Assembly: GCA_021432605.1 (NCBI GenBank)
Contig: MU271143.1
Span: forward strand, 1,435,277-1,499,276
DNA: 64,000 nt
Origin: Coniochaeta sp. PMI_546
Lineage: Eukaryota; Ascomycota; Sordariomycetes; Coniochaetales; Coniochaetaceae
Reading direction: 5' to 3'
In this document: positions 1,808-52,094 of the stretch, piece by piece
Layout: each line of letters begins with the position of its first letter
How positions within the stretch are numbered: position 1 is the stretch's first letter
The notes under the pieces: generated by a model
What the model was told of the DNA's origin: nothing
Databases searched by the model: none
Seen by the model: only the letters and a program-made list of their open reading frames with translations
Position numbers and translations under genes: made by a program

Positions 1808-2806
1808 CTAAGCCCATGCCTCAAACCACCTTACCGCCTGGAAGAACGCCGATTCTTTGCCAAACTTCTGCTCGGGATCAGAAACGTTCGCGCGGACGCC
1901 AAAGCCGTGCTGAGTGCCGGAGTACAGGGACACCTGGTAAGGCTGGGTGGTGTTCGCCAGCAGCGCCTCGATCTGTCCTCGTCGAGCAGGTGGCATCAAC
2001 GAGTCGGTTTCTGGCATGAAGACTTAGCCCAAATGTTCGCCCAATGACCACACGACGGATAACAGAAATACTTACCAGCGGCAGCTACACTCGCCGGCCC
2101 GGCGATCGCCAGGATCTCTCCGTCCTCGAGCAAGCTCGGATGCGCAGCAAAGGCAGCATCGGCCCCTTTACCCTTGGCCACGGCCCGGAAGGCATACCGC
2201 CCACCGTAGCAGTAGCCCGTGGCGGCTATTTTCTCGACACCGGAGCTGCGGAGGTAGGCGATGGCCTTTGCGATCAGGGGGTCGGCGACATCGGGTCCGT
2301 GGGCGGCGAGGAAGGCGGTCGTGTTGAAAGTTGGATCGTTCAGATCGCTTGGGGCTGGGGTGCCGTTGAAGAGATCCGGGGCTACGGTTAGGTAGCCTGC
2401 TCGGGCGAAGCTGTCGGCCAGTCTGTGGTGGTGCTGTTAGATTTTCTTCTGTGGCCACGGCACATCGGAGGGCGATGGAGCAAGGGAATCGCTCTTAGAC
2501 ATACAACTTGTTCTCTGCGAGCTGGATGCCGAAAACGTCGGTGAGGTACACGACGCCTACTTTAGGGGCCTTGCATCCAGGCTTGGACACGTACAGGGTG
2601 GCTGCATGTAGCTCTTTGTTAGTGACTGTACGTTCACCGCGAGACACAGATTTGAAATCCGTACTTCCGTTAACGACCTCCTCTTTTCCCACTGGCGTCC
2701 CAGTGTGGGCGATTATTGATGTGTCCGCAATTGGACAGCTCTTCGCTAATGCCAGTGGAATAGAACAAATGCTCCAAAGAAGCAGAGTGGTGAGAGATGT
2801 TCGCAT
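1808..2806 (-). CDS. Secreted dienelactone hydrolase family protein
   Basis: Alpha/beta-hydrolase of the dienelactone hydrolase (carboxymethylenebutenolidase-like) family, which cleaves lactone or ester bonds. Three exons: 2806..2505, 2422..2076 and 2010..1808 (283 residues). Both introns are 65-82 nt with GTATGT and GTAAGT donors. ATG 2806 is preferred over the in-frame ATG at 2833 because it places a clean signal peptide (hydrophobic TLLLWSICSIPLALA) at the N-terminus. The nucleophile elbow GYCYGG supplies the catalytic Cys, the ETD created across the second splice junction supplies the Asp, and QHGFG supplies the His, so the triad is complete. Family members act on aromatic breakdown products or mycotoxin-like lactones. 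The substrate here cannot be read from sequence. Confidence 0.88.
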
Positions 2807-3741: not shown

Positions 3742-5248
3742 TCAAGCAGTTGCTGCGCTGCATTCCTCGACATGCATTTCGTCCTTGTCGTTCATGTCCT
3801 CCATGGTACGAAGCTCGTCGGTCGCAAGGACGGAGTACCGGTTCTCAGCGAGCAGACGCTTGGTGGTGATACGGTCGGGGTAGTTGCGCATGAACATGTT
3901 GGTGAAGTGCGTACCATAGTGCACCCCCTCACGCTCGGCCGGTGCTGCCCCGTCCTGAACGGCAGGTACTGCCGGGGAGGAGTTCGTGTTGCCTTCGCTG
4001 TATTCCTTGAGGGGCTCCACGACGGCCCGAAAGTTTGGCTCATGGAAGTACGCGATCGTGTAACGCTCACGGTTGTTCAAGCCGACCTTGTGCGGGGTCG
4101 ACTTGAGGAAGGAGTTGGTGAGGTACTGCATCATGTCGCCTGGTTTGACCAGCCCGGTTAGCAACACAAGATCTTGCCAATGGCATGTCTCCACGAGAGA
4201 CAAGAATAACGAAACAAACTGAGTTTGGCTTACCGAGTATGACAGTGAAAGTGTCTTCCATCGGTGGAACATAGACCCAGCCGTCGTCGTTCTCCTTCAT
4301 CCCAGCTGCGCTGTTCTTCCAATTGGCGTACTCCTCATCTTGATAAGGTGGTCGGACAAAGAGTCCTATGTCCGAGGTCAGTGAGACTATCATAAGACCA
4401 AGAAAGTCTAGGGCATCCTTACCTCCCACGTTGTCCTGAGCGGAGATCACCAGGAGACCGTAGTCAGTATGCGATCCAATACCACGGCCGGCTTTGCCCT
4501 TGCCGTTGGTGTTGTTGCGTCCCGGAAATCTGAGCACCCTCGAATGATGCCAGCCATCGGCCGTATACTTGGTGAGGCTGCCAGGCTCTAGTCCGAGACC
4601 CATCTCGGTCAAGCCAAGCAAGACCTCTCCGCACCGGCCGACCTCATCCATGTAAGCGGTCAGTGGGTCTTTCATGTTCGCCTTGGCCGCCCAGGGACAC
4701 GGGCCGTGACACGGCCAGCGAGCCTGGACCCGGGGATCGCTCAGGGGTAGATCCTTTGTCACTGTGAAAATCTCCGAGTAGTCCGCGATGCCGTCCGTAA
4801 TCTCCTCTCCCGATGCGATGTACCCGGCGTAGCTCTGATCGTCAACACAACTGGCCTTCTCCTTGTACGGCAGAGAGAAGAAGCGCCTAGATGCGGCAAA
4901 CGCCGCGTCCCGAAGGCGCTTTTGGTGCGGAGTCATGCTGAATTAGAGGATTCCATCCCGGCGCCAGGTTCGGATCATGGCCCGGCCGAGAGCCTCATCG
5001 CCGGCGCAGTGCGTCACACTAGAAGGTAGCTCGAATGTGTCGAAGTCGCCAACCCGTGCACGGAATCCCGGCGGCATCGTGTTCCTATATTGGTTCATAG
5101 TAGGCGTGACAGGCGACCGGCAGAAAGGAGGCGGCGTGTGAAAAGAGGAGCCCATGGCGCCGAGTGCCTCAGTGCTCATGGCTCGAACAGTATTGAGGAG
5201 CCTGACTCGACCGCTCAAGCTGATGACGGGTTGTGATAGTGCTTGCAT
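3742..5248 (-). pseudogene. Ethylene-forming-enzyme homologue (2OG-Fe(II) dioxygenase) with in-frame stop
   Basis: Strong resemblance over its length to Pseudomonas syringae/Penicillium EFE, which turns 2-oxoglutarate and O2 into ethylene and CO2 and also couples 2OG decarboxylation to L-arginine oxidation. Exons: 5248..4423, 4365..4234 and 4139..3742; introns 57 and 94 nt. Visible motifs: ASGEE (Arg-binding Glu region), RVLRFP, HTDYG (iron His/Asp, about residue 260), STPHKV (second iron His), NNRERY (2OG Arg), AYFHEPNF and YPDRIT. All match EFE as I recall it, so the catalytic set looks complete. However, codon 102 (4945..4943) is TAA. The context DGIL-stop-FSM aligns gap-free with DGIFQIK of the bacterial enzyme, so a CAA or CAG glutamine was probably lost. 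Upstream and downstream frames are otherwise clean. Either a recent pseudogene, an allele, a sequence error or readthrough. The start is uncertain: ATG 5368 and 5179 are also in frame. Confidence 0.85.
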
Positions 5249-8795: not shown

Positions 8796-10282
8796 ATGTC
8801 GTATCCAAACTATCCACCCTATGGCCGTGAGCAATACCTGATTGCGCTCCAAAGATGACATAACATCATGTCCAATCCGCTAACGAACAAGCAGAGCCGC
8901 CGACAGGCAACCAGGGCTATTACCAACAACCTCCCGCAGGCCAATATCCGCCTCCGGCGCATTCTCCGTATCCTCCTCAGCAAGCACCACAGGGTGGCTA
9001 CTACCCCCCACCGCAGCCTCCTGCGCAACCCTACGGCGCATCGCCTCCTCCCTCTCCATACGGTCAGCCCTATGGTCAGCCACCAGCGCAAGCGCCTTAC
9101 GGAGCACCGGCTCCTTCGCCGTACGGCGCACCGCCAGCTCAGTACGGCGCGCCTCCCCCGCCAGCGCAACCCTACGGCCAACCACCGCCACAGCAGTATC
9201 CCCCACAGCCCTACGGTGCCCCGCAGGCATACAACAACTACCCGCCGACGCCACCGTCGCTAGGTTACGGCCCTCCACAGAGCATACAATGGAACGGTGA
9301 CGCGGACGCCCACGCGCTGCGCTCAGCCATGAAGGGCTTCGGCACAGATGAGAAGGCGCTGATCCGGATACTTGCTACCAAGGACCCCCTGCAGATAGCC
9401 ACCATCCGCGACGCCTATCAGCGCATCCACCGGCGCAACCTGGAAGCAGACATCAAGAGCGAGACGCGCGGATGGTTTGAGGAGGGGCTGTGCGCCCTGG
9501 TGCGCGGCCCGCTGATGCAGGATGTCCACCTGTTGTGCTCGGCCATGGACGGTCCTGGCACCAAGGAGAAGGTGCTCAATGACGTGCTGCTCGGCCGGTC
9601 CAACGCCGATCTGAACGCCATCAAGAAAGCGTATTCGCATGCCACCCGTCAGCGGCTGGAGGATGCTGTGCGCGGCGACTTGAGCATGAAGACGGAGCGG
9701 CACTTTATGATCGTGCTGCAGGCGCAGCGCGCAGAGGACTCGGCGCCCGTCGTCAAGGCCGACATCGACCGCGATGTCTCGGATCTGTACAACGCGACCG
9801 AGGGAAAGGTCGGCACCGACGAGATAAGGGTCTGCAGCATTCTGAGCACGAGGAACGACAACCAGATCCGGGCGATCGCCCACGAATATCGACTCAAGTA
9901 TGCGAGAAGCCTAGAAGATGTCATCAAGAGGGTAAAGATGCTCCAAACCATCTCAACGAATACCAACGTCGACGTCCACTAACTTGTTTCATAGGAGTTC
10001 TCCGGGCATATGGAGGATGCCTTGCTCTACCAGCTACGGCATGGCCTGGACAAGTACATGCACCAGGCCCAGCTTCTTGAAGATGCGATGTCCGGTGTCG
10101 GAACCAAGGACCATCTGCTAGTCAGCCGTGTCGTTCGTTCACACTGGGACCGCCAGAACATGGACAACGTCAAGGGTGCTTACCAGCAGCGCTATCACAA
10201 GAGTCTGGCTAGCAGGATCAAGGGAGAGACGAGCGGCGACTATGAGCGGCTAATGCTGGCTTGTATTGGGGAGAATGTGTAA
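8796..10282 (+). CDS. Annexin (fungal annexin XIV/C type)
   Basis: Calcium-dependent phospholipid-binding protein. Exons: 8796..8826, 8895..9931 and 9995..10282 (451 residues); introns 68 and 63 nt. The first exon encodes only ten codons plus one base; splicing restores MSYPNYPPYG-Q. The first 150 residues or so are a Pro/Gln/Tyr/Gly-rich tail with repeated PPxQPYG units, as in other fungal annexins and like the N-tail of human annexin VII/XI. Four annexin repeats follow, each opening with a G-x-G-T calcium-site loop: GFGTDEKALI (about residue 158), GPGTKEKVLN, GKVGTDEIRV and GVGTKDHLLV. This matches the expected four-repeat core. Role in fungi is probably membrane organisation or secretion; that is family knowledge, not visible here. 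Confidence 0.95.
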
Positions 10283-51966: not shown

Positions 51967-52094
51967 GGTCCCATAGCTCAGTTGGTTAGAGCGTCGTACT
52001 AATAGATTCACACATGTCACAGATCACACGCGGTTCTGTGATGTGGATCCATCAAGTAATGCGAAGGTCTTGGGTTCAACCCCCAATGGGACCA
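51967..52094 (+). tRNA. tRNA-Ile(AAU) with 54-nt intron
   Basis: The acceptor stem GGTCCCA (51967-51973) pairs with TGGGACC (52087-52093); A 52094 is the discriminator. The D-arm contains AGCTCAGTTGGTTAGAGC. The anticodon stem TCGTA (51994-51998) pairs with TGCGA (52060-52064) with one G-T pair, and the loop CTAATA-A gives anticodon AAT (52001-52003). An intron of 54 nt (52005-52058) interrupts the loop after position 37, the canonical site. It contains a hairpin-capable CACAGA/TCTGTG pair. The T-arm reads GGGTTCAACCC. AAU becomes IAU after adenosine deamination. Confidence 0.93.

Follow-up and report, generated by a model that had tools for sequence, protein, structure and literature searches.

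A premature stop codon in an ethylene-forming-enzyme-family gene of Coniochaeta sp. PMI_546, probably a recent nonsense allele

The closest described relatives of the gene considered here are the ethylene-forming enzymes (EFEs) of Penicillium digitatum Pd1 (PDB 9eir/9eis) and Pseudomonas savastanoi PK2 (5v2y, 6vp4). The P. digitatum enzyme has been reported to carry a mitochondrial presequence (excerpts of PMC12060275 and PMC4202696), and a construct without its first 49 residues is described as mainly insoluble, one starting at Leu37 as soluble (PMC12060275, in part). Judging by the accessible portion of PMC4202696, few organisms carrying fungal EFE homologues seem to make ethylene: the homologue of P. 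chrysogenum gave none in yeast, whereas the P. digitatum EFE did. The same excerpt sets ethylene formers against the non-forming protein of P. chrysogenum at ten positions – single changes at 235, 254 and 278 had no significant effect on ethylene, a 212/213 double change lowered it, and the P. chrysogenum protein with all ten residues exchanged still formed none – so that, on this partial account, the ten positions alone are not decisive. Effective ethylene formation is further described as needing a hydrophobic 2OG pocket, with Ala279 named among the pocket residues (PMC12329707, in part).

Coniochaeta sp. PMI_546 (taxid 1450552) is a Populus root endophyte (PMC6757388, in part); the same source names genomes of Lecythophora sp. 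AK0013 and C. ligniaria CBS 111746. No paper in the literature searched paired ‘Coniochaeta’ with ‘ethylene-forming’, while PMC9006483, as far as its excerpt goes, pairs ‘Coniochaeta’ with ‘ethylene production’; a search on ethylene-forming enzyme, pseudogene and premature stop yielded nothing on topic among the matches listed. The EFE-family gene of this fungus lies in a window – the whole stretch of DNA analysed, 64 kb of contig C1 in an assembly of 33.5 Mb and 24 contigs – where it occupies positions 5248-3742 of the minus strand, with three exons and two introns between an ATG at 5248 and a TGA at 3744-3742. Exon 1 (4423-5248) is interrupted at codon 102 by an in-frame TAA (4945-4943), which divides the product into a piece of 101 residues before the stop and one of 349 residues after it. 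There follow intron 1 (4366-4422, 57 nt, GTAAGG...ATAG), exon 2 (4234-4365), intron 2 (4140-4233, 94 nt, GTAAGC...CCAG) and exon 3 (3742-4139), which contains the TGA end, all on the minus strand. This spliced reading agrees with the public NCBI protein (P0001), a ‘clavaminate synthase-like’ protein of 347 residues, which starts at the first ATG past the TAA (4934-4936, minus strand) and is identical to the post-stop piece from its first Met.

Both sides of the TAA look coding, given their similar third-position GC (0.64 before the stop, 0.72 after it, and 0.68 over the 44-residue stretch that opens with MPPGF and ends at the stop). The first 25 residues (5174-5248, minus strand) contain three Arg and no Asp or Glu, and by their resemblance to what is reported for P. 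digitatum EFE they probably form a mitochondrial presequence. Public models of two related proteins – P0003 of Coniochaeta sp. 2T2.1 and P0040 of P. digitatum PHI26 – begin at an internal MPPGF/MPPNY methionine and so lack a presequence; such an omission has been published for P. digitatum and is perhaps true of 2T2.1 too.

In a search of solved structures, the P. digitatum EFE chain (9eir) was the best match for both pieces, with E values of 8e-10 for the pre-stop piece (which matches 9eir residues 43-93) and 5e-141 for the post-stop piece, both well outside what chance would give. The P. savastanoi EFE was the next best match for the latter (about 1e-94 to 5e-93, with PK2 at about 3e-94), and the extant EFE chains thus range from 5e-141 to 5e-93. 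Below them came an EFE ancestor obtained by reconstruction (9ovh, 2e-32), and the extant protein that followed was an IPNS-like one of Pseudomonas aeruginosa (6jyv, 5e-30). Pfam identified DIOX_N and 2OG-FeII_Oxy in the post-stop piece and nothing over the cut-off in the pre-stop piece, and NCBIfam matched neither. The gene keeps the 2-His-1-Asp iron triad (H189, D191 and H268 in PK2 numbering), the 2OG-site arginines R277 and R171 and the L-Arg site (E84, T86, Y192, M313, F314 and R316), with Asn, as in P. digitatum, at PK2 position 317; a Glu corresponding to E215 of the long loop is also present, as it is in 108 of 116 other relatives at the same column. Every ligand checked, whether for Fe, 2OG or L-Arg, falls downstream of the TAA. 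These data confirm what the initial annotation had proposed, namely that this is an EFE homologue, with generic 2OG oxygenases standing much further from it; a closer relationship to the latter was looked for and not seen.

Compared with the two characterised enzymes, the PMI_546 gene resembles that of P. digitatum Pd1 in its iron triad, its 2OG arginine and its L-Arg ligands, in having Asn where PK2 has Cys317 and in its N-terminal extension, but differs from it in carrying the TAA and in having Thr, Ser and Ile at Pd1 Ala338, Ala260 and Phe309. With PK2 it shares the metal, 2OG-carboxylate and listed arginine-site residues, whereas the fungal N-terminal extension, A198 to Ser, A279 to Thr and Cys317 to Asn set it apart. 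The rarity at first ascribed to EFE does not hold for the family, since EFE-family genes are common in fungi: 1170 proteins among 3619 candidates matched at E<=1e-3, and the best 120 of these 1170 come from fungi wherever the source is named.

The position of the stop was examined in an alignment of 119 relatives (the best 120 listed minus P0001), in which the two pieces of the PMI_546 gene were entered as separate rows. A single column lies between the pieces, and it holds Gln in 117 relatives – that is, in every one with a residue there – and a gap in the remaining two (P0065 and P0094). In the alignment to the 9eir chain, the last pre-stop residue falls on residue 93 and the second post-stop residue on 96, so the TAA replaces just one residue. 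No other defect was seen along some 1350 coding bases, and this one leaves the gene without an uninterrupted frame from the family’s start region. The earlier description of one in-frame TAA in place of a glutamine, with no other defect, is thus accurate. P0094, a JGI protein of 356 aa, has its annotated start just past the stop column, which may reflect an intron, a start that was miscalled or a further interruption.

The stop column is intact in Coniochaeta ligniaria NRRL 30616 (P0002), in Coniochaeta sp. 2T2.1 (P0003) and in the fragment P0032. Over the post-stop piece, the first two are 91% and 84% identical to PMI_546, respectively; they differ from it in lacking the stop and in having annotated starts at methionines other than that of the PMI_546 model. 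A search for the same stop in other strains, with the 101-residue N-terminal piece as query, was uninformative (12 candidates, none at E<=10).

As a test for decay, amino acid relative rates were compared between PMI_546 and C. ligniaria, with 2T2.1 as outgroup. Among 393 columns, 326 were alike in all three proteins, 11 were changed uniquely in PMI_546, 12 in C. ligniaria and 29 in 2T2.1, and 15 differed in all three; for the post-stop columns only, the unique changes numbered nine in PMI_546 and ten in C. ligniaria. Around the ratio of 11:12 the 95% interval spans 0.37-2.27, and this three-protein comparison gives no sign of relaxed constraint on the PMI_546 gene. Two other triples point the same way, with 6 changes in PMI_546 vs 12 in 2T2.1 (outgroup Diplogelasinospora) and 7 in PMI_546 vs 8 in C. 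ligniaria (outgroup P0032). Departures at 90%-conserved columns were likewise few: four in PMI_546, the same four in C. ligniaria, and those plus one more in 2T2.1, set beside seven in P0032, in part at its poorly aligned end, and a median of three (range 0-10) in 116 others. Assuming a normal rate of about a tenth of the neutral one, the upper bound of the interval would confine a loss to roughly the final seventh of the branch. Such an absence of decay fits a very young loss, but an error in the sequence or continued use of the gene just as well; the recent loss suggested at the outset stands to the extent that the mutation, if real, is young.

We consider it likely that the TAA is a real, recent nonsense allele representing a young loss of function, and it is the reality of the stop, as opposed to a sequencing error, that we infer. 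A recent point mutation would have turned codon 102, for a conserved glutamine, into TAA; as the initial annotation suggested, it may be a strain polymorphism. A ribosome setting out from the normal start would then make a 101-residue peptide without catalytic residues, and a restart past the TAA would yield the 347-residue protein, in which the presequence is missing along with the first long helix and the strand after it – when the intact C. ligniaria protein is modelled with AlphaFold, a helix (59-75) and a strand (77-81) precede Met82, the residue matching the public PMI_546 start. With two introns downstream of the TAA, which is the usual setting, the transcript is likely to be subject to nonsense-mediated decay. 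By the models, the restart protein probably does not fold well: built, like that of the intact protein, on a shallow alignment (31 and 32 rows), its model has a mean pLDDT of 71.7 vs 75.9 and a TMt to 9eir_D of 0.76, that of the intact protein being 0.94. The product would accordingly be expected to be non-functional and, as the peptide is non-catalytic and the restart product probably folds poorly, the strain should lack this enzyme.

Among the alternatives, a base error in the assembly, with the real gene intact, is unlikely, though it would account for a solitary defect in a gene without excess changes, and nothing in P0001, which comes from the same organism, indicates that the base was read a second time independently. 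The contiguity of the assembly argues against such an error, as does the nature of the defect, a single substitution, where long-read assemblies more often err by indels. It is very unlikely, in our view, that the gene is still used by starting at the ATG just past the TAA to give an active protein of 347 residues. The public gene model does use this start, every ligand checked is retained in such a protein, and post-stop changes are not in excess; however, a ribosome scanning from 5248 would have to bypass eight earlier ATGs, six of them in frame, the helix and strand of the intact model would be lost, and the truncated model is the poorer one, while in P. digitatum the removal of just 49 residues already gave the mainly insoluble product mentioned above (PMC12060275, in part). 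Taken together, the bypassed ATGs, the lost elements, the insoluble construct and the lower model scores lead us to expect a null allele.

That the TAA is read through or spliced past, leaving some full-length or shortened enzyme, seems highly improbable. The lack of excess changes would suit it, and 19 in-frame GT-AG pairs of 40-250 nt do span the TAA, but even the shortest of them takes 33 codons – the TAA and 32 aligned residues – and strong donors (GTAAG, GTGAG, GTATG, GTAAA, GCAAG) are found in none of these 19 pairs and in none of the 70 GC-AG pairs spanning the TAA, the latter judged by donor motif only. Splice removal was rejected on these grounds, in line with the initial annotation, which had held that splicing would delete aligned residues and that no donor fits. 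To our knowledge, a TAA followed by TTC is no recognised readthrough context, which counts against readthrough. There is just as little to recommend RIP, one of the origins that the initial annotation had considered for a CAA-to-TAA change, or any other C-to-T process that acts premeiotically on duplicated DNA. The type of change would fit, but there is only a single site, the RIP composite index is negative and alike in the gene (-0.45) and the window (-0.47), with 1 of 126 one-kb windows above zero, and no second copy was found at the protein level; with neither a duplicate nor a RIP dinucleotide signature, RIP was set aside as the cause of the TAA. The search for a second EFE in the PMI_546 genome, made in six frames and exon by exon with all 16 of 16 candidates scored, found none: of eight matched places, three are the EFE-family gene itself and five are distant (27-39% identity, E>=1.5e-8), the latter presumably other 2OG oxygenases.

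Returning to the nonsense allele, what would have been lost with it is a separate matter, as ethylene formation, whose loss the initial annotation had considered, is not implied by EFE homology – the P. chrysogenum homologue, in the accessible part of PMC4202696, makes none. At the ten positions compared in that source, PMI_546 agrees with the non-former at four (Y212, D235, M254 and Y278), and has the P. syringae EFE residue at four (L22, V172, A199 and I322) and another residue at two (Q213 and V304). The P. chrysogenum/rubens homologue in our set (P0060, identified by its residues and not by accession, with the published P. chrysogenum residue at 10 of 10 positions) is likewise a fungal EFE-family protein and shares the first four residues with PMI_546, but it is intact, and it is PMI_546 that has the ethylene-former state at L22, V172, A199 and I322.

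The 2OG pocket offers a more distinctive feature. At PK2 A279 (Pd1 position 338), where P0032 lacks a residue, the proteins of PMI_546, C. ligniaria and 2T2.1 all carry Thr, whereas 116 other relatives have Ala in 110 cases, Ser in three, Val in three and Thr in none. Together with Ala179 and Val194 (Pd1 numbers), this Thr338 is common to the three Coniochaeta proteins at columns that are 93-99% conserved in other relatives. Ser at A198 and Ile at F250 are less unusual (found in 15 and 23 of the 116 others, respectively), and the pocket residues L173, F175, V196, A281 and F283 are kept. The literature searched, parts of papers included, contained no measurements on an A279T enzyme, so lowered ethylene formation is a prediction; from sequence, even the intact Coniochaeta relatives may be poor ethylene makers. 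One could go further and suppose – tentatively, as we think it rather doubtful – that the shared Ala-to-Thr change at 279, with Ser198 and Ile250, has moved the Coniochaeta EFE clade away from ethylene formation and into arginine hydroxylation or a different 2OG reaction, and that the enzyme then became dispensable in PMI_546. This genus-specific pocket change is the part of the finding most worth assaying.

The interruption itself is an ordinary kind of event, correctly read from the DNA and concealed in public annotation because the model there starts downstream of it. Some caution is due in using that annotation, as a broken EFE gene probably lies behind the 347-residue ‘clavaminate synthase-like’ protein, which should not pass for a natural N-terminal variant. 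If real, a fresh natural null allele with intact sisters would allow a direct comparison of the enzyme’s role in a root-dwelling fungus.

As for the neighbourhood, the gene is accompanied by a dienelactone-hydrolase-family gene (1996-2436, minus strand) and an annexin gene (8864-9982, plus strand), and a Pfam scan of nine reading frames in the window brought up nothing that would connect them with EFE. The seven best matches of a neighbouring inositol monophosphatase gene are 82-99% identical to it. ARAGORN, run with bacterial settings, found no tRNA at 51967-52094 (plus strand), where Rfam gave a tRNA match of 53.6 bits; its span of 128 nt suggests an intron-containing tRNA gene.
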